IMG/VR virus record: IMGVR_UViG_3300025483_000021
Span: 1 to 45,176 of that record
Direction: 5' to 3' (one strand)
From: a virus
Length of the DNA stretch: 45,176 nucleotides
Positions within the stretch are counted from its first letter, which is position 1. Each line of letters starts with the position of its first letter. The notes beneath the pieces are model-generated. The model had not been told where the DNA came from and did not search any database. It worked only from the letters and a program-made list of their open reading frames with translations. The position numbers and the translations under genes are program-made. Shown here piece by piece: positions 35,873-44,850 of this stretch.

Positions 35873-37243
35873 TTACTTGTTGGGAATTGAGTCTCTAATC
35901 AAAAGCAATTCAGAAGTGCAACCTTTCTTGGTGTAGGTAAATGTATGGGCAGCAATGAGATACTTCCCGCTAAATTTCCTATCTTTGGTAACACTCTTAC
36001 CCTTCTCGCGAGATCCAGGTATGATGAGTTTAATAATGTCCCCCGCACAGAGTGCAGTGTTTCCAGGCACCTGAATGGTTAACTGAATTGCTTTCATTAG
36101 ATTATATCTAGCCGCTGCGTATTCTGCAACCGCCAAAGTGTCAAAGTTTTGAGTCCCATTGTCAGGATCTCCTTTCGGTTGACCTGTAGATCCTTGCTGA
36201 TGGGCAAGGGCTGGGATGATTCTCATCTTCTGTCTAGTAGGCGATGCACCCTCCCCCTTCACCTCTTCAGGCATATTGAATGGTGGTGAATCATGGAGGG
36301 TCTTAGCTCTCTTGAAGATAGCATCAAACGCTGTTTCTCTAGCAGGATATACCGTGCCTGAGGGCGCAGACTTCTTGTCATTACTAGCGCCTGACTGTGT
36401 AGCATTACTTAGTGTAGGCATAGTCATACAAATACCAGTGGTGACTGTTTTATATGTGCCCATTCTCATGTGTCTGAGATGGTTTGCCTTATCAGGATAT
36501 TGAATAGATTCAATATTGTAATACCCAGCATCTCCCTCTTCTAGTTGACCCTGCTGTTTGTATGTATATGAAAATTCAAACCCCTGCTCACACAACAGGT
36601 CAATAGATTTGAAGTTGTATCCTCTCTGATTTTCATAGAATAAGAATCCAGATTGCTTGTCGTCACCCCTACCAGATGTCACCCTAGTAACCTTGTCTGA
36701 GACATATGAGATAAGGTCTACAGGTCTCCAGTTAGGAGATACAACCATAACTCTAGAGTGGTCTTCAAAATTCTCTTCCTTAATTCTCTTGCCAGGTGCT
36801 TTCAGATATTTCTTACAGACATGCTTAGGAATGTTTTCAACGTCCTTGGATCCACCCTCATCAATAGGACCAAATGCTTTGAAGACTTTATATATTTCAT
36901 TGTTATACATCTCTGGTGAGCAACAGAAGAGTTTATACATCTGCCCTCTCTCAGATTTGATGATGTCACCAATCTTATAGACTTTGAATTCTAACTTTAA
37001 GATGCCTTTATCATTCGCTGCTAAGGTCTTTAGGTTGACTTCAACTTTCTCACCACCCTGCAAATTCAAGTTAAAGTCAACAGAGTCGATCATCGTCAAC
37101 TCTAAGCGTACAAATGGTGCCTCAATAGACTCATAGTAGAGAAAATTTCCCACCAGATCCTTAATGTCATACTCTTCCTCATTAGTGAGTGTAGTTAGAG
37201 AAATTTTGTTACACTTAAATTCTCTTGATGCGTTGTTTGCCAT
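35873..37243 (-). CDS. 27: Baseplate hub protein gp27-like
   Basis: The 456-residue product lies between the tape-measure-like genes and gp5. It has beta-rich N-terminal domains (for example RLELTMIDSVDFNLNLQGGEKV), as expected for the gp27/gpD hub fold, and a C-terminal beta region (NTALCAGDIIKLIIPGS and GKYLIAAHTFTYTKKG) of the hub type. T4 gp27 has 391 residues. Its start overlaps the upstream stop as TAATG. It probably forms the trimeric hub that carries gp5. Confidence 0.75.
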   Translation of the reverse strand: MANNASREFKCNKISLTTLTNEEEYDIKDLVGNFLYYESIEAPFVRLELTMIDSVDFNLNLQGGEKVEVNLKTLAANDKGILKLEFKVYKIGDIIKSERGQMYKLFCCSPEMYNNEIYKVFKAFGPIDEGGSKDVENIPKHVCKKYLKAPGKRIKEENFEDHSRVMVVSPNWRPVDLISYVSDKVTRVTSGRGDDKQSGFLFYENQRGYNFKSIDLLCEQGFEFSYTYKQQGQLEEGDAGYYNIESIQYPDKANHLRHMRMGTYKTVTTGICMTMPTLSNATQSGASNDKKSAPSGTVYPARETAFDAIFKRAKTLHDSPPFNMPEEVKGEGASPTRQKMRIIPALAHQQGSTGQPKGDPDNGTQNFDTLAVAEYAAARYNLMKAIQLTIQVPGNTALCAGDIIKLIIPGSREKGKSVTKDRKFSGKYLIAAHTFTYTKKGCTSELLLIRDSIPNK

Positions 37244-40200
37244 TACATTAAGTTACTAAGGGTGGTATTAAACTCAGTGAGGACACCAAATTTGGGCATT
37301 AGGAAGTCATCAGCGTCATTCTTATCCTTACCAGGGACAATAATTTCATTAGATTCACCACCCATGATAGGTGCTTCTTCTTGATTGGTAATAACGGGTT
37401 GCATTGCGGCATCACGTTGAGTAGTCAGTGACTTCAATTTATCTGCTTTACTTTCAGTCTTCTTCTGCTGACCCTCTTCTACCTTCTTACCACTGGTATT
37501 AGTGCTCGCAGTTTTAGGTAAAGATTTACCCAGTTCTCCGAGACCTTTACCCAAGACACCATCTGCGCCAAAGAGTCTCTCGATGATCTCAGCCTGAGTC
37601 TCTCCATCCTTCTTCCCTGTATCTGTCTTCTTAGATTCCTTTGCTGCTTTCTCTTCTGCCTTACGCTCTTTATCAGTTACGACAGCATCCTTCATAGTCT
37701 CAGGTGCTGCAAACTCATTATCAGCGCCAGGTTTGACAGACATCTTAGTTACAGGGTCAATCTGATAACCCGCTGCTGCTGCAGCTGCAGCATGTGCATC
37801 AGGAGCACCCTGATCTTTATGATCTTGGAATGATTTATCAAACCAGTATGCTGTATCTGCCTTGGGATGAATCTTAATCTCTTTGATATTTGCTGGTGTA
37901 GATGTCCCCTTCGTGCCTTTATTCTGATGCCTATTGGCAATGTCAGTCTTCAGACCACCTGAATTCATTACTGCCTTAAATTCATCACTGTCTGGTCTAA
38001 CACCAGCTCTCTTTTCACCCATTCCAAATAAGTTACCTGCCTCAGTCCTCTTGGACATTGACTTGATAGATACCGAACCATCAACATATCCATAAGTTAC
38101 ATAGTATGACTTGTCATTTAAGACAACTCTACTTGCTTGGAAACTATCTTTCTTATATTTTACAGGATCAAACTTACCACCCTCAGCAAACTTAGGCAGG
38201 AATCCACCCCTAGAGAAAGGCATGGAGTATCCACCACGAGATGCCTCACCTATTCTCTGATGAGTAAGACCAGGATTAGTTCTGGTTGCAGGAGTGTCAA
38301 ATGGCACAACAAATGCGCCACCACCTGCAAATCCTTTCATACCAACCCACTCAGTGCCATGACCAATGAATGACGTGCTAGCACCACCATCTAGTGACAC
38401 AGGGTAACCAGACTGAGGACCAGAGATCCATCCACCCATCGACTTCTGTGGTAACGACTGTGGCACCTGACCACCTTGAGCGAATCCAAAGAAGTTACCA
38501 ACAGCACCCAGGAGACCACCTGCTACTGCCTTCACACCCTTGAAGATAGGATGATCTACGATTGCTTTGAATAGTTTACCAATCAGTGAGATAGTGCCAT
38601 TATCACCAGCGATTGCCTCTAGGAGTTTCTCATCCCATGACATTCCTGTATCTTTTTCTGCCTTCCCTTGATCCCCACCCTTCATATCTTCTTTATTGGC
38701 AGCACTACCACCAATAACAGAAGTTGATACACCAAAGATCTTAGCAAGAGGTGCGATCATTGCACCTAGCATGTTTCTAATAGGTGCAGGGAGGAATGCT
38801 CCGAATACTTTACCAATACCACCGATGGCAGTCATAATGCCAACACCCAGTGCTTTGAATGGGAGTTGCATCAACTGACCGAAAGCTTTAGCAACCTTCG
38901 CAGTCTTGCGAAGTTGCTTTGCCATCTCATCTTGCAGGTTAAATGACCCACCAGATGCCATCTTAGGTTGGACCATCTTAGCGGTCTGGAAGGACCCTCC
39001 TGCTGCCTTACCTGCCTTACTCTTCTCCTTATCTACCTCATCTGTCTTAGGTGCAAAGAATTTCAGCACTGCAGTCAGTGCTTTGAGTCCTAAGAATAGA
39101 GGAGCAAACCAGACCTGGATGCCAACACCCAGGATCTTACTGATCATTGGGAGGTGGGGCTCGATGAAGTCAAGCACCTGAGTCATTACTGCCCCAAGGG
39201 TTTCAAAGAAACCACTCAGATTATCTTTAATAGGTGCCATCACCTGCTTAAAGACATCACCAATCATGTTGAAGAATCTACCGATTGGTTTGAAGATGGG
39301 TTCCATAAACCCACCGATTGCTTTACCTGCCTTACCACCAACGAATGCACCAGCAGCACCACCGATCATCCCACCAAGGGGACCACCGAGTTTATTACCA
39401 ATAGCTTCACCAACCATGGCACCACCAGCGGTGCCTACACCAGCACCAACTGCCTCTGCATTGCTAGCACCAGCACCTTTCTCGCCCAGGAATGCACCAA
39501 CACCTAGACCACCAGCAATCAAACCCTTACCGAGTTTACTACCTGCAAACTTCCTAATCTTGGCACCAGCTTTCGCTGCCTTACCAATGTTTAGGATACC
39601 TTTGATCAGACTACTGACAACCCATCCGACAGTCTTAGCAGTCGCTAATGGATTCTTGAGGAATGCTATCCCCAGGAATATGGGAGCAGCAGACAGCAGA
39701 AACTGTCCTAATCCTATAATCCCCTTCAGAGATATAGGATTCTCCATAAACTTCACCAGTCCATCAAACGCCGACCCTACAAGGAATGACGTTATCTTAA
39801 AGACAAACTTACCAATAGCAGCAAGTCCTTCTACAAGTTTCTGGACCTTATCTGGATTCTTAGAGATCCAATCCAATGCAGCAAATGCAATGAAGATCTT
39901 AAAGATACCACCTAAGAATCTAGCAATAGCACCAAGGAATCCACCAAAAGCACCTTTTGCTGCCTCCTTAAAATTCTGGACTACCTGAGATCCTGCCTTC
40001 TTTTCCTTCTTCTCGCTCTTATTTTCTAACTCTTCTCTCTTCTTCTTATTCTCTCTACGCTTCTCTTCAGCAGTTTTCTTCTTCTCTCGTCCTTCCTCTG
40101 CCTTATCTACAGCAATCTCTGCCTTCTTAGTAATGTTGTCGCCTTTGATCTTGGCAGAGACTCTATCCTTCATCGCTTGAGTCATTGCCTCTACTTGGAG

Positions 40201-40407
40201 AGCAATGCCATTCATCGATGCACCCAAGGAATTCATACCTGAGGTGATAGACTTAAATGCTTTATCCTGATCTTTGACAATCTTACCTAACTCATCAGCA
40301 GCAGTAAGAGGCGTAAACTTTTTGCCACCACCAGTGCCCTTATAAGATATCATCTTATAAAGTTTTGGTTTTGAGACCTTAGTTGCTGGTGCTTTTGGTG
40401 ATGCCAT
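37243..40407 (-). CDS. Tape-measure-like tail protein, copy 2 (1054 aa)
   Basis: The protein is made of a charged helical N-terminal region (coiled coil around residues 95-140), a hydrophobic helical segment (about 150-230, FIAFAALDWISKNPDKVQKL) and a glycine-alanine-rich segment with repeats like GNKLGGPLGGMIGGAAGAFVGG (about 315-370), then long amphipathic helices. This layout is that of phage tape-measure proteins. The gene is a diverged paralogue of the larger gene upstream. It has its own late promoter (40463-40470) inside the end of the upstream gene. The C-terminal part is rich in Gly and Lys and contains no wall-degrading domain that I recognise. Confidence 0.75.
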   Translation of the reverse strand: MASPKAPATKVSKPKLYKMISYKGTGGGKKFTPLTAADELGKIVKDQDKAFKSITSGMNSLGASMNGIALQVEAMTQAMKDRVSAKIKGDNITKKAEIAVDKAEEGREKKKTAEEKRRENKKKREELENKSEKKEKKAGSQVVQNFKEAAKGAFGGFLGAIARFLGGIFKIFIAFAALDWISKNPDKVQKLVEGLAAIGKFVFKITSFLVGSAFDGLVKFMENPISLKGIIGLGQFLLSAAPIFLGIAFLKNPLATAKTVGWVVSSLIKGILNIGKAAKAGAKIRKFAGSKLGKGLIAGGLGVGAFLGEKGAGASNAEAVGAGVGTAGGAMVGEAIGNKLGGPLGGMIGGAAGAFVGGKAGKAIGGFMEPIFKPIGRFFNMIGDVFKQVMAPIKDNLSGFFETLGAVMTQVLDFIEPHLPMISKILGVGIQVWFAPLFLGLKALTAVLKFFAPKTDEVDKEKSKAGKAAGGSFQTAKMVQPKMASGGSFNLQDEMAKQLRKTAKVAKAFGQLMQLPFKALGVGIMTAIGGIGKVFGAFLPAPIRNMLGAMIAPLAKIFGVSTSVIGGSAANKEDMKGGDQGKAEKDTGMSWDEKLLEAIAGDNGTISLIGKLFKAIVDHPIFKGVKAVAGGLLGAVGNFFGFAQGGQVPQSLPQKSMGGWISGPQSGYPVSLDGGASTSFIGHGTEWVGMKGFAGGGAFVVPFDTPATRTNPGLTHQRIGEASRGGYSMPFSRGGFLPKFAEGGKFDPVKYKKDSFQASRVVLNDKSYYVTYGYVDGSVSIKSMSKRTEAGNLFGMGEKRAGVRPDSDEFKAVMNSGGLKTDIANRHQNKGTKGTSTPANIKEIKIHPKADTAYWFDKSFQDHKDQGAPDAHAAAAAAAGYQIDPVTKMSVKPGADNEFAAPETMKDAVVTDKERKAEEKAAKESKKTDTGKKDGETQAEIIERLFGADGVLGKGLGELGKSLPKTASTNTSGKKVEEGQQKKTESKADKLKSLTTQRDAAMQPVITNQEEAPIMGGESNEIIVPGKDKNDADDFLMPKFGVLTEFNTTLSNLM

Positions 40408-43400
40408 TACTTAGTGAGAAGTGGCGAAGGTTTGGTATACACTGCGCTAGTGCTCCCTCCTGTATTTATCGTCTGTCTAACCTTTTGTACAACTAATTTC
40501 TCCATAACAACAGGCACAAAGTCTGATTCATCATCACGTCGTGCTTTTTCTTCAATTGCTTTGAGATTCTTGACAGCTTTAGCTTGGATAGATCCTAGTT
40601 GCTTAATCTCACCAGCGCCACCTGAGGGTGCTGTAGCAACAGGGTTTCCAGGGGTCTCTTTAGAAGATTTAACTGGATTATCTTTGGGCACATTGGTGCT
40701 GATCTTTGTCAAGGCAGATGTTAAACCTGTCTTGAATGCTTCCATCATCTCTTCAAGAGTCTTGGGTTTTTCAGGTTTGGCATCATCTCCACCGCCACCG
40801 TTGCCGCTGTTGCCACCGTTGCCGCTGTTGCCACCAGTAGTAGTAGTTTCTGCCATGCTGTCATCAAATTCTCCACCGAGTTGATGTGCAGCATATGCTC
40901 TATGATCTGATGGTGTCGCATCTAAGTGGACATGGACATCTCCACTAGGTTTGTTACCTTGTAAACCAAGAACAGTATTGGGGTTAACCGTCTGACCCAC
41001 AGCTACTTTGAGCGAATCAAAGTGGTGGAATTGCATACGGTCTTTACCGTTCTTGTTAATGACAACAGTATTGTGGGATCCACCTGCATGGGTTACTTTA
41101 CCATCCACACCAGCAACTACAGGTGATCCTCTATCTAAAGATTGGTTACTAAAGTCTCTAACAATCACATAGTCTCTAGGGACAATAGGATGTCCACCTA
41201 GTCTACTATTATTTTTTCTATGATTATCAGATAAGTTATGGTGGAGAGGATAATCGCTGAATGGTGTTTGAGGTGTCAGACGCACATCATTAACAGATCC
41301 ATTAGTGGCAAGCAGACCGCCTGCCGCATACCCCATAATCTCCTTTTTCTTCTGAATTTTTTCTGCTACGTCCTCATAGGCAGATAAGGTGGGCTCACCC
41401 ATACCGACGCGAGCGCCACGTTTGACCCTACCACCCTTTGCCAGTTGCTCGAAAGCATCATACATCATCTGAGGTTTGATGTGCGCTACATTGACACCAT
41501 CCCCAGCATAGAAACTAGCACCACCATCATTCTTTGGAATTGCAGCCCAAACTCTTGACAGTCTGAGCATTGCCTCCTTAGGATTCTCCTTCGCCATCTT
41601 CTTGGAGACATGTGCCTGACCAGGACCGATTAGATATTCAGCAATCAGTTGCTGATTCTCTGCATTGTATATGTCCTTTTTAGGGTCAAGACCTACTGCT
41701 ACTGCTCTCTGATTGAGATACTCTGGTAAGTTTTGCCATGCACCAACAGCACCTGTTGCCTTACGAGCAACGTCAGCAATGGGCATTCCAGATGCACCAG
41801 GCAATGTAGTGCTTGGATACATTGAATCATATCCACCGCTACCAGCTTCATACTTTAGGATTAGATTAAGTACTGGAGCCCATCCACCTTCAATCTCTCC
41901 TACAGGAGACCCACCACCACTACTGGTGCTTCTTGGACTTTGTGGAGTTTGACCCTTCTTATCCTCAATCTGCTTTGCCAATGCAGGATTGAAGATCTTG
42001 ATACCACTGAGAAGTAGTTTGTTTAACCCCTGATCAATCGCTTTGAAAGTGCCTTCTTTATAACTAAGACTCTTGACTGCATCAACCTTTTTCTTTTCAG
42101 TCTGAGTTGCTTGGAATTGTACACTATTACTTACACCACCACCAGCAGTGCCACCACCGCCAGTACTGACCTGCACACCTAGTCCACCAGCAATCTTTTG
42201 AATGTCAGGTGCTAGGACAGATTTTACTTTATTACCAACAAATCCAAATGCACCAAATGATCCTACTATGGTCTTAAGGTAGAGACCACCTACCATGCCC
42301 AGCATGTCAGGATGACTACCAAACTGTAGAGCACCACCCGCTGCCATCTGGACAGGACCGCCTGCTGCCTTCTTATTCTCTTTGTCGAAGTCAAACAGGT
42401 TGAATGTCAACGCATCAGCAACACCACCTGCCACAGAAGCAGGATTCATCAGACGCTTGGCATTATTGACGACAAATTGGACGGTGCCACCAATGGCATC
42501 CATCATTCCACCGAAGATAAACCCAGCGAATTCTGCGAGAATCTTAGCAGCATCCATTAGGACTTTGCCAAGTTGACCTATCATCTGGAAGATCAACCCC
42601 AGTGGCTCAGCAAGTTTCTGGAAGAGAGGTCCGATGGTCATCTTGACCACCTCAAACATCATCTTAAATGCTTTACCAATAGGTCCGAAGATAGGCTCCA
42701 TGATTGGACCTAACTCTTTACCTACCCACTCACCTAAGAAACTACCGATCGCATTACCAACGATAGGTGCAAAGGGTCCTAGGAAGGGTCCCAGGAGTGC
42801 TGTGCCAGCGATACCGCCAACTATACCACCAACACCCTGACCGACGCCAGCACCAATAGCAGAGGATGCCTTCTCACCACTCGCAAGACCTGATGCGATC
42901 CTTCCAGCGCCTCCTACGACGCTCATACCGACGTTTAACTTACCGCCTAGCTTACCAAATACTTTGTTAGCACCAGCACCAAATCTCTTGCGTGCTGCAG
43001 ATGCTTTTCCTTTGAATTTAGAGAAACGACTTTCTTTACCAAATCTATCCTCAAATGCTTTACCAGCACCAGGATTCTTGCGTTCTGCCTTTGCGGCAGA
43101 CTTCTTCATCGCTTCGTATTCTTCTTTGGAGTAGATAACTCCAGTCTTCTTATCTCTAAACCCGCTCTTTCTTACCTTCTGGTTAACATCCTGCTCTGCA
43201 GACTGCTGGTTGGACATGTTGAAGATCATTCTCAGACGATTAACGTCCTTCATCAACTTCCAAGGCATGATCAGATACTGTGCTGTCCTAAGCGCAGCAA
43301 GACCACCCATCATCTGCACGACTCCGAGTATACCTCGGAATGCACGTTTGATCGGACCTTCTTCCTTAAAATTACCAATTAAATTAGTCAGTCCATCAAG

Positions 43401-43955
43401 GAGCAGACCAACCCCAAATTTAGTAACTTTGAATGCAAACTTACCTATGGTGAATAGTATCTTGAATACCTTTACGGCACTCTCAGCATTCTTGGGGTTA
43501 CTTAACCAGTTTAATGCTCCAAATATAATCATATATTTGAAGACTTTGAATAGACCATTGAAAAGTCTACCAAGCATACTTAACTTGGGTTTCTGCTTCT
43601 CAACTGCCTTCCTGCCTTCCTCTTTGCCTTCTTCTACGCCCTTCTCTGCTTCGTCTTCTAACTTGCCACGTTTCTTCTTTTGGAAAGATTTCTTGAAATC
43701 CCGCATGGATGTAGTCCACTTGGTCTTATCCTTCTTATCTTTCTTCTTAATCGTCGTGACTTCTGTCTTGGAAGTGTCTGTAAGATAATCTTTCTCAAAC
43801 TTTAGAAGCTCAGTAGTGTCATAAAAACTCTTGGCAATGCCATCCGTCACGCTCCCCATGCGATTGATGCTCTTACGCACCTGATCCATGTTTTGGGCGA
43901 TACCTGATTTACCAGTTATCGGTTGAATTTTAACGAAACTACGGATTGCTGCCAT
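40407..43955 (-). CDS. Tape-measure-like tail protein, copy 1, with lysozyme-like and M23-like domains (1182 aa)
   Basis: The domain order is a helical N-terminal (1-130), hydrophobic helices (about 130-190), a Gly/Ala-rich region (about 340-420, for example SAIGAGVGQGVGGIVGG), further amphipathic helices, a lysozyme-like domain (about 693-805, LILKYEAGSGGYDSMYP with candidate catalytic E703 and GAVGAWQNLPEYL), and an M23-like domain (about 925-1025: GSPVVAGVDGKVTHAGG, FHHFDSL, VHVHLDA). The usual first M23 zinc ligand is not evident. The likely role is to set tail length and, on DNA injection, to cut host peptidoglycan. Start ATG overlaps the gp51-like stop (TAATG). Confidence 0.8.
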   Translation of the reverse strand: MAAIRSFVKIQPITGKSGIAQNMDQVRKSINRMGSVTDGIAKSFYDTTELLKFEKDYLTDTSKTEVTTIKKKDKKDKTKWTTSMRDFKKSFQKKKRGKLEDEAEKGVEEGKEEGRKAVEKQKPKLSMLGRLFNGLFKVFKYMIIFGALNWLSNPKNAESAVKVFKILFTIGKFAFKVTKFGVGLLLDGLTNLIGNFKEEGPIKRAFRGILGVVQMMGGLAALRTAQYLIMPWKLMKDVNRLRMIFNMSNQQSAEQDVNQKVRKSGFRDKKTGVIYSKEEYEAMKKSAAKAERKNPGAGKAFEDRFGKESRFSKFKGKASAARKRFGAGANKVFGKLGGKLNVGMSVVGGAGRIASGLASGEKASSAIGAGVGQGVGGIVGGIAGTALLGPFLGPFAPIVGNAIGSFLGEWVGKELGPIMEPIFGPIGKAFKMMFEVVKMTIGPLFQKLAEPLGLIFQMIGQLGKVLMDAAKILAEFAGFIFGGMMDAIGGTVQFVVNNAKRLMNPASVAGGVADALTFNLFDFDKENKKAAGGPVQMAAGGALQFGSHPDMLGMVGGLYLKTIVGSFGAFGFVGNKVKSVLAPDIQKIAGGLGVQVSTGGGGTAGGGVSNSVQFQATQTEKKKVDAVKSLSYKEGTFKAIDQGLNKLLLSGIKIFNPALAKQIEDKKGQTPQSPRSTSSGGGSPVGEIEGGWAPVLNLILKYEAGSGGYDSMYPSTTLPGASGMPIADVARKATGAVGAWQNLPEYLNQRAVAVGLDPKKDIYNAENQQLIAEYLIGPGQAHVSKKMAKENPKEAMLRLSRVWAAIPKNDGGASFYAGDGVNVAHIKPQMMYDAFEQLAKGGRVKRGARVGMGEPTLSAYEDVAEKIQKKKEIMGYAAGGLLATNGSVNDVRLTPQTPFSDYPLHHNLSDNHRKNNSRLGGHPIVPRDYVIVRDFSNQSLDRGSPVVAGVDGKVTHAGGSHNTVVINKNGKDRMQFHHFDSLKVAVGQTVNPNTVLGLQGNKPSGDVHVHLDATPSDHRAYAAHQLGGEFDDSMAETTTTGGNSGNGGNSGNGGGGDDAKPEKPKTLEEMMEAFKTGLTSALTKISTNVPKDNPVKSSKETPGNPVATAPSGGAGEIKQLGSIQAKAVKNLKAIEEKARRDDESDFVPVVMEKLVVQKVRQTINTGGSTSAVYTKPSPLLTK
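40463..40470 (-). promoter_or_regulatory. T4-type late promoter (GATAAATA), internal to the upstream gene
   Basis: GATAAATA on the minus strand, 56 bases before the ATG at 40407, within the coding sequence for copy 1 of the tape-measure-like protein. It may drive copy 2 separately. Because it is internal to a gene and sits farther from the ATG than the others, it could be chance. Confidence 0.4.
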
Positions 43956-44152
43956 TAGAGGGACATTCGTGACTGATCTTGTTGTTGCCTTCTTTCTTCC
44001 TCAGCAATGTGTGCGAGGAGAAGATTCACATATACATCACGTTCCCACGGTATCATATTCTCTAATTCTGTTAGCGAATACTTGTGGTGCTGCATCAAGG
44101 CAAAGTTTGTCTTATAGTAGTTTTCAAGACTATCATGCAGTAGGGCTATGCG
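43955..44152 (-). CDS. 51: gp51-like tail assembly chaperone, likely reached by -1 frameshift from gp26
   Basis: The stretch is an open frame in the -1 phase relative to gp26 and encodes about 65 residues from the frameshift point (RIALLHDSLENYYKTNFALM then MQHHKYSLTELENM and IPWERDVYVNLLLAH). The IPWERD-containing part looks like the second half of lambda GT-type tail assembly chaperones and of T4 gp51. The frame has no ATG until 44095. An alternative independent start there would give 46 residues. Upstream the frame is closed by a TGA at 44171. The gene ends at 43955 with TAATG, overlapping the tape-measure gene. Confidence 0.75.
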   Translation of the reverse strand, partial: RIALLHDSLENYYKTNFALMQHHKYSLTELENMIPWERDVYVNLLLAHIAEEERRQQQDQSRMSL

Positions 44153-44850
44153 AAAAAACTCGCTAGTCCTTCAAGCACAACATCGGATACGACTTTAGTG
44201 TTGGGGTTAACAACCTCAAGTGTGTATGACAGTTTGGGCATAGTCTCAAAGAATTTCTGGACTTTAGCAAACTGCTCGGAATTCAAGTCTTCCAAGAATT
44301 CAAGTGCTTCTTTCTTAGTGAAGTTGTCATAGACTTCTTCCTTATCGTAAACACTTTCAATACACCCTGCTGCCAACTCAAAGATATCCTCGATATTAGG
44401 ATCCTCCGACATATTTTGACTGATGAATACATCAATCGACGGATACTTCATAACAATACCTACATTATCATCGAGAAGCATTTTCTTCTCATGCTCTGCA
44501 GGAATAACCACCTCAACTTCATTGAGAGGGACCATCACTTCTACTTGGGTCTCATTATCATCAGGGCAGGTGATTTTGAATTCACTCGCTTCACCAACAG
44601 CAGTAGCACGAATGCGAAGGAAGATGTATTCGATCTCGAATGTTGCGAGATCTTCAACCTTACCTTTCAGGTTGGTGCAGTTTCTGATGATGGTCTTAAC
44701 TGCTTTGATCATCTGCTTGTCGTCTTGCGACTCCATAGCGAGATACAGCAGTTTTTCCTCCTTAACGAGGAAAGGTCTATATGTGATTTTAGTGCCAGTA
44801 ATAGGCAATGTCAAATCATACTCGGGGATAGCGAGCTTAGGTAAAGGCAT
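44146..44850 (-). CDS. 26: Baseplate hub assembly/tail protein gp26-like
   Basis: This 234-residue protein begins MPLPKLAIPEYDLTLPITGT and continues with TYRPFLVKEEKLLYLAMES, a conserved start of the T4 gp26 family (T4 baseplate protein, Pfam PF12322). The start ATG has GGAG 4 bases upstream. In T4, gp26 and gp51 are needed for hub assembly. In lambda-like tails the gene in this position (between tube and tape measure) encodes assembly chaperone G. Position and slippery sequence before its stop suggest the same function. Its late promoter overlaps the stop of the tail-tube gene. Confidence 0.85.
   Translation of the reverse strand: MPLPKLAIPEYDLTLPITGTKITYRPFLVKEEKLLYLAMESQDDKQMIKAVKTIIRNCTNLKGKVEDLATFEIEYIFLRIRATAVGEASEFKITCPDDNETQVEVMVPLNEVEVVIPAEHEKKMLLDDNVGIVMKYPSIDVFISQNMSEDPNIEDIFELAAGCIESVYDKEEVYDNFTKKEALEFLEDLNSEQFAKVQKFFETMPKLSYTLEVVNPNTKVVSDVVLEGLASFFA
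44152..44158 (-). other. Candidate -1 ribosomal frameshift site (T TTT TTC)
   Basis: The heptamer T TTT TTC has the exact X XXY YYZ form of a -1 slippery site in the gp26 frame (AGT TTT TTC GCA TAG). It is two codons before the gp26 stop. A -1 slip would read on to TTT TTT CGC ATA and enter the gp51-like frame, giving a fusion of 233 plus 65 residues. A short possible stem (ATAGT with ACTAT) follows about 20 bases downstream. Confidence 0.75.

Follow-up and report, generated by a model that had tools for sequence, protein, structure and literature searches.

Genes 26 and 51 of a marine T4-like cyanophage, carried on a viral DNA record of 45,176 nucleotides (IMG/VR IMGVR_UViG_3300025483_000021; the whole stretch is called the window here), are very probably one gene expressed through programmed −1 ribosomal frameshifting, with products that would work as tail assembly chaperones (TAC); the probability of this reading is put at about 0.93. 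The frameshift itself is strongly supported by the sequence, and the observations are best accounted for by a −1 frameshift chaperone pair like G/GT of phage lambda. The first-pass annotation of the window had already proposed that a −1 frameshift fuses gp26 to a gp51-like chaperone, and the proposal is borne out by an invariant heptamer, a −1 frame conserved ahead of any start codon, suitably spaced stimulatory elements in most relatives, and a T4 gp51 in which both domains are fused in frame.

Under this reading, most ribosomes would read gp26 (TAC-N, 234 aa) and terminate at its TAG codon. In a minority, the tRNA-Phe in the P and A sites would slip back by one base on U UUU UUC, and these ribosomes would go on in the −1 frame to make the 298-aa TAC-NC. 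In most relatives, slippage would be helped by an upstream Shine-Dalgarno (SD)-like element and a downstream RNA stem. TAC-N would have the part that gpG plays in lambda, coating the tape measure protein, and the minority form, with its extra TAC-C domain, would recruit tail tube subunits as gpGT does.

The central claim is known in kind for T4-like phages, several groups of which reportedly conserve the frameshifting; what is added here is its conservation, together with helper signals, across cyanophages. According to the papers that cite it, the study of Vladimirov, Gautam and Davidson (2022, Virology 566:9-15) identified the TAC genes of T4-like phages, and one of those papers (PMC12846349) cites it as the source on poly-T frameshift signals in the TAC-N genes of T4-like phages. 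The window locus, with the same kind of gene and a poly-T slippery site, looks like a further member. The first-pass annotation was aware of no report for this group, but as cited the T4-like chaperone frameshift was already in print. In 2016, T4 was still listed as the exception to the conserved G-T frameshifting (PMC5009743). In the Vandenendeviridae and Andersonviridae, too, TAC-N ends in a poly-T −1 frameshift site beside the tape measure gene, and the downstream open reading frame (ORF) is often mis-annotated, but their motif is GTTTTT and they belong to a different phage family (PMC12846349). As far as could be found, the following are new for this group: the upstream SD-like element and the localised downstream RNA structure of most relatives, and the start codon of the putative tape measure gene at the stop of the fusion. 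In the open-access literature searched, no description of the SD-like element, of the 3' structure or of a coupling to the tape measure was found for this group.

The slippery site and the −1 frame

The features of the locus are collected in Table 1. On the minus strand, gp26 ends in GAA GGA CTA GCG AGT TTT TTC GCA TAG. An upstream TGA at 44173-44171 closes the −1 frame, which is open from the Phe-Phe (FF) pair to a TAA at 43957-43955, a total of 67 codons with 65 after FF. Much of this had been read correctly from the letters of the window: the 65 open codons as far as the tape measure gene, the lack of an ATG in this ORF before 44095 (the earliest ATG of the frame in the window) and the 298 residues of the fusion were all recovered on recomputation. 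The heptamer and the TGA closure also stand, with two distances corrected. The heptamer had been placed two codons before the gp26 stop, which is so only if TTC is counted, and the TGA lies 12 nt before the heptamer rather than 13.

Table 1. Features of the gp26/gp51 locus in the window
Feature	Position	Strand	Remarks
gp26 / TAC-N, 234 aa, 0-frame product	44146..44850	-	PF12322 T4_baseplate (E 4.7e-69), phrog_150
SD-like element GAAGGA, about 8-14 nt before the slippery site	44167..44172	-	anti-SD pairing and Glu codon bias in relatives
Slippery heptamer T TTT TTC	44152..44158	-	phase correct for −1 slippage
gp26 0-frame stop TAG	44146..44148	-	one sense codon between heptamer and TAG
−1 frame ORF gp51 / TAC-C (FFRIALLHDSLENYY...SRMSL), C-terminal part of predicted 298-aa fusion	43955..44158	-	phrog_634 E 3.4e-31
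Downstream RNA stem region, two nested stems, −8.6 kcal/mol	44090..44140	-	weak in the window phage, strong in most relatives
Tape-measure-like protein, 1182 aa, M23 peptidase domain	40407..43955	-	length, position, weak profile match

Profile searches with the 298-aa fusion gave matches to phrog_150 over residues 1-278 and to phrog_634 over 194-296. These matches, along with collinearity with T4 gp51, indicate that the long form is the whole short form with an extra C-terminal domain. The 45-kb record, which is a fragment, holds one copy of PF12322, and TAC-C can be reached in the −1 frame only, so the window does not follow the two-gene TAC arrangement of T4. The mere presence of the heptamer was rejected as evidence, since the bare motif occurs 7 times in the window against 7.0 expected; unlike its presence, its phase, position and conservation exceed chance.

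Conservation and stimulatory elements among relatives

An initial set of 84 loci was made up of contigs from one IMG/VR scan, three isolates and the window. It includes four loci (L017, L018, L030 and L082) that were missed by the first motif search and have the same arrangement on inspection. With L101, L103 and the isolate S-PM2 added, the set came to 87 loci in 51 clusters (<80% amino acid identity). When the junction is compared across these cyanophage-type loci, a check that the first-pass annotation had proposed, the heptamer site and the reading phase are kept in 87/87, with the gp51 domain in the −1 frame. The pattern NNT TTT TT[C/T] is present in all 51 clusters, and most relatives have exactly T6 followed by C. 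The codon before TTT is AGT, TCT, GCT or AAT; the heptamer is thus fixed at the nucleotide level, as the third base of this codon is always T though the residue varies. Given how this gene otherwise uses codons, the invariant pattern has a P of ~10^-45 with the 51 clusters treated as independent; since the clusters share ancestry, the exponent is overstated but the conclusion is not. As an internal control, a second Phe-Phe pair in gp26 is encoded by TTT TTC in 1 of 55 cases. The 0-frame stop comes one codon after the heptamer in 49/51 clusters and directly after it in the other two.

Beyond the slip, the −1 frame carries a coding signature ahead of any start codon, as the first 20 codons show entropies of 0.91/0.61/1.30 bits at the three −1-frame codon positions. 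This frame is free of stops to the end of gp51, and the remaining two frames hold stops in 51/51 clusters. These observations bear on the view that gp51 is a separate small protein made from its own internal start, the heptamer being incidental. Many GenBank records do call gp51 as its own coding sequence with an internal start, and the window does offer an ATG at 44095, as do many relatives near codon 5-8. The position of this start is not conserved, however: the first ATG of the gp51 frame falls at codon 5, 6, 8, 11, 20, 21 or 34, and in 16 of the 87 loci, including the window, there is none until codon 20 or later. The −1 peptide ahead of the first ATG, by contrast, is conserved among relatives, and a start at 44095 would cut off RIALLHDSLENYYKTNFAL. 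The nucleotide-level fixation of the heptamer and the in-frame fusion of the same domain in T4 gp51 also argue against an independent start, which makes it very unlikely. Homologues with a conserved gp51 ATG and no slippery site, which would have spoken against the frameshift, were not seen among the 87 loci, in which the start is variable and the heptamer is kept.

The SD-like element is GAGGGA in most relatives compared to GAAGGA in the window phage. In the 23 nt before the site, pairing with the anti-SD sequence amounts to −7.1 kcal/mol versus −5.2 kcal/mol in synonymous randomisations, and it is stronger in 39/51 relatives. The Glu codon of the element is GAG in 36 of 50 cases, compared to 33% elsewhere in gp26 (binomial 1e-8). 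On the other side of the heptamer, RNA structure is limited to the 50 nt directly 3' of the site, with a mean z of −2.24 at +5 and of about −0.2 in most other windows along the RNA. Against synonymous codon permutation, the mean z of this segment is −2.07, with 31/51 clusters below −1.65, compared to −0.3 to −0.5 in control windows. The downstream structure of the window phage itself is not significant (z −1.1). For its clade, RNAalifold gave no consensus stem, and a hand-written two-stem model has modest covariation; an Rfam search around the frameshift site gave no match. The downstream stems are clade-specific, and no consensus fold emerges because the stem sequence differs between clades. 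A three-part signal of SD-like element, heptamer and stem may be kept while the stem sequence turns over between clades, an idea offered tentatively. Judging by these sequence comparisons, the SD-like element and the stem likely aid slippage in most relatives.

The six-T homopolymer run ahead of the frame change could also point to slippage by RNA polymerase, producing mixed mRNAs, some of them in the gp51 frame. Transcriptional slippage in bacteria usually needs longer runs, and in most relatives T6 is kept exactly and followed by C. A heptamer in codon phase, SD-like spacing and 3' RNA structure are hallmarks of ribosomal frameshifting, and polymerase slippage has a negligible chance of being the explanation.

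T4 and the wider family

T4 belongs to the same protein family. Matches to PF12322 and phrog_150 in each of its two proteins show gp26 and gp51 to be paralogues, and gp51 has the phrog_634 domain in frame as well. The cyanophage fusion aligns collinearly with T4 gp51, unbroken across the frameshift junction, and T4 gp51 is a natural in-frame fusion of the two domains, gp26-like and TAC-C, in a single reading frame. The divergent paralogues gp26 and gp51 are encoded on opposite strands in T4, 44RR, ZZ1 and G5211 (L084, L105, L107 and L108), where the heptamer has been lost at the Phe-Phe site of gp26 (GAG TTC TTT in T4 gene 26). T4 had been suggested earlier as a place to look for the heptamer; its absence there does not refute the frameshift reading, since T4 carries two genes instead. 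T4-type phages thus have two genes where cyanophages use one slip, and the PRFect paper (PMC10885494) cites Vladimirov 2022 for such a two-gene solution (TAC-N and TAC-NC) in T4-like phages. In an unrooted tree with long branches, gp26 (90/83), gp51 (100/99) and the single-gene set (98/95) each form a group; being unrooted, it does not give the direction of change between the one-gene and two-gene forms. A sequence search of solved structures with T4 gp51 gave no match. T4 gp51 is needed for assembly yet is absent from the particle (PMC3004832). The cyanophage gp51 was described as only about 20% of the length of T4 gp51, without its first ~200 residues (Sullivan 2010, PMC3037559), and this shortness is explained if gp26 itself supplies the missing part by way of the frameshift.

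The slippery arrangement extends outside the cyanophages. The heptamer T TTT TTC is also found in Vibrio phage nt-1, Cronobacter phage S13, Aeromonas phage Ah1 (all three being Straboviridae members of the wider set), Stenotrophomonas phage Mendera and Desulfovibrio phage 7757. It takes the form T TTT TTT in Sinorhizobium phage N3, Ochrobactrum phage OC and Pelagibacter phage HTVC008M, and T TTT TTA in Pseudoalteromonas phage XG4; phage S-N03 has the same slippery gp26/gp51 arrangement. Among 93 further divergent contigs with a readable gene end, T TTT TT[C/T] lies <=24 nt from the stop in 85. In six others, the stop comes later, some eight codons past TTT TT[C/T], which the automatic search did not reach, and the last two (L130 and L132) were read by the script in a wrong frame. 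The 0-frame stop falls about eight codons past the slippery site, not zero or one, in L138, L164, L183, L184, L186 and L198, which shows that a stop close by, though common, is not a requirement. In the Synechococcus phage S-WAM1 (L081 5206-5395), no gene is annotated over the gp51 region, and the annotation of gp26 begins at a later start.

Pseudomonas phage Cygsa01 and Vibrio phage K445 (L091 4700-4911, L092 4550-4795) have gp26 and the gp51 domain with no heptamer, and a TAATG stop-start overlap stands in its place. This is possibly a third way of expressing the gp26/gp51 pair; a contig scan with a K445-based query found no relatives. A stop-start overlap (TAATG or TGATG) occurs in nt-1, Mendera and others as well, and it suggests another account of the window, in which ribosomes stop at the end of gp26 and restart in the overlapping frame, gp51 being a coupled but separate protein. 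In the window and in most cyanophages, the gp26 stop (TAG CCC TAC TGC) has no start codon beside it and the heptamer is kept, which leaves reinitiation extremely unlikely. For this locus, independent start, stop-start coupling and transcriptional slippage were all judged unlikely.

Probable chaperones and tape-measure-like genes

By homology and gene position, the products of the slippery gp26/gp51 gene probably act as tail assembly chaperones. The AlphaFold model of gp26 has a mean pLDDT of 84.6, and its two best fold matches in the PDB are to the HK97 tail assembly chaperone 2OB9 (probability 0.85 and 0.87, E 0.6 and 0.7). The match to this protein, HK97 gp13, spans about 90 residues only, with a TM score (target) of about 0.5, and it is suggestive of a tail assembly chaperone fold rather than proof of one. 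As in lambda, two chaperones would come from one start, with the −1 slip late in the first ORF, and the gene would lie just ahead of the one for the tape measure. The protein family (PF12322 in the window) and the heptamer, which is G GGA AAG in lambda, are different, and here the stop comes one codon past the slip, and most relatives have 3' RNA structure and an SD-like element. The lambda proteins gpG and gpGT are described as −1 frameshift tail assembly chaperones (Levin 1993 and Xu 2004, as described in PMC5009743); the role of gpG is to coat the tape measure and that of the T domain of gpGT to recruit tube subunits (PMC5009743).

Downstream of the fusion are two consecutive long ORFs of 1182 and 1054 aa, identified as probable tape measure genes from their length, position and the annotation of HTVC008M; their matches to tape-measure phrogs are weak (phrog_973 E 3e-4 and phrog_167 E 8e-12). 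Their N-terminal ~200 residues are paralogous (37243-40407 and 40407-43955; 31% identity, E 3e-13), and the M23 peptidase domain is in the first-transcribed of the two. The ATG of the first overlaps the TAC-NC stop as TAATG at 43953-43957. In 48/51 clusters, the start of the tape-measure-like gene overlaps the fusion stop or is <=17 nt from it, usually with little SD; cyanobacterial genes are often without one. From this overlap or adjacency and the scarcity of SD in most cyanophages, it could be speculated that the frameshift also controls how much tape measure protein is made, with slipped ribosomes reinitiating on the tape measure gene and the synthesis of TAC-NC and tape measure being tied together.

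The cyanophage gp26 and gp51 are likely chaperones of the tape measure rather than parts of the baseplate hub. In many records, gp51 is given a doubtful start or is missing entirely. For making the same two proteins, a single slippery gene and a pair of duplicated genes would be evolutionary alternatives.
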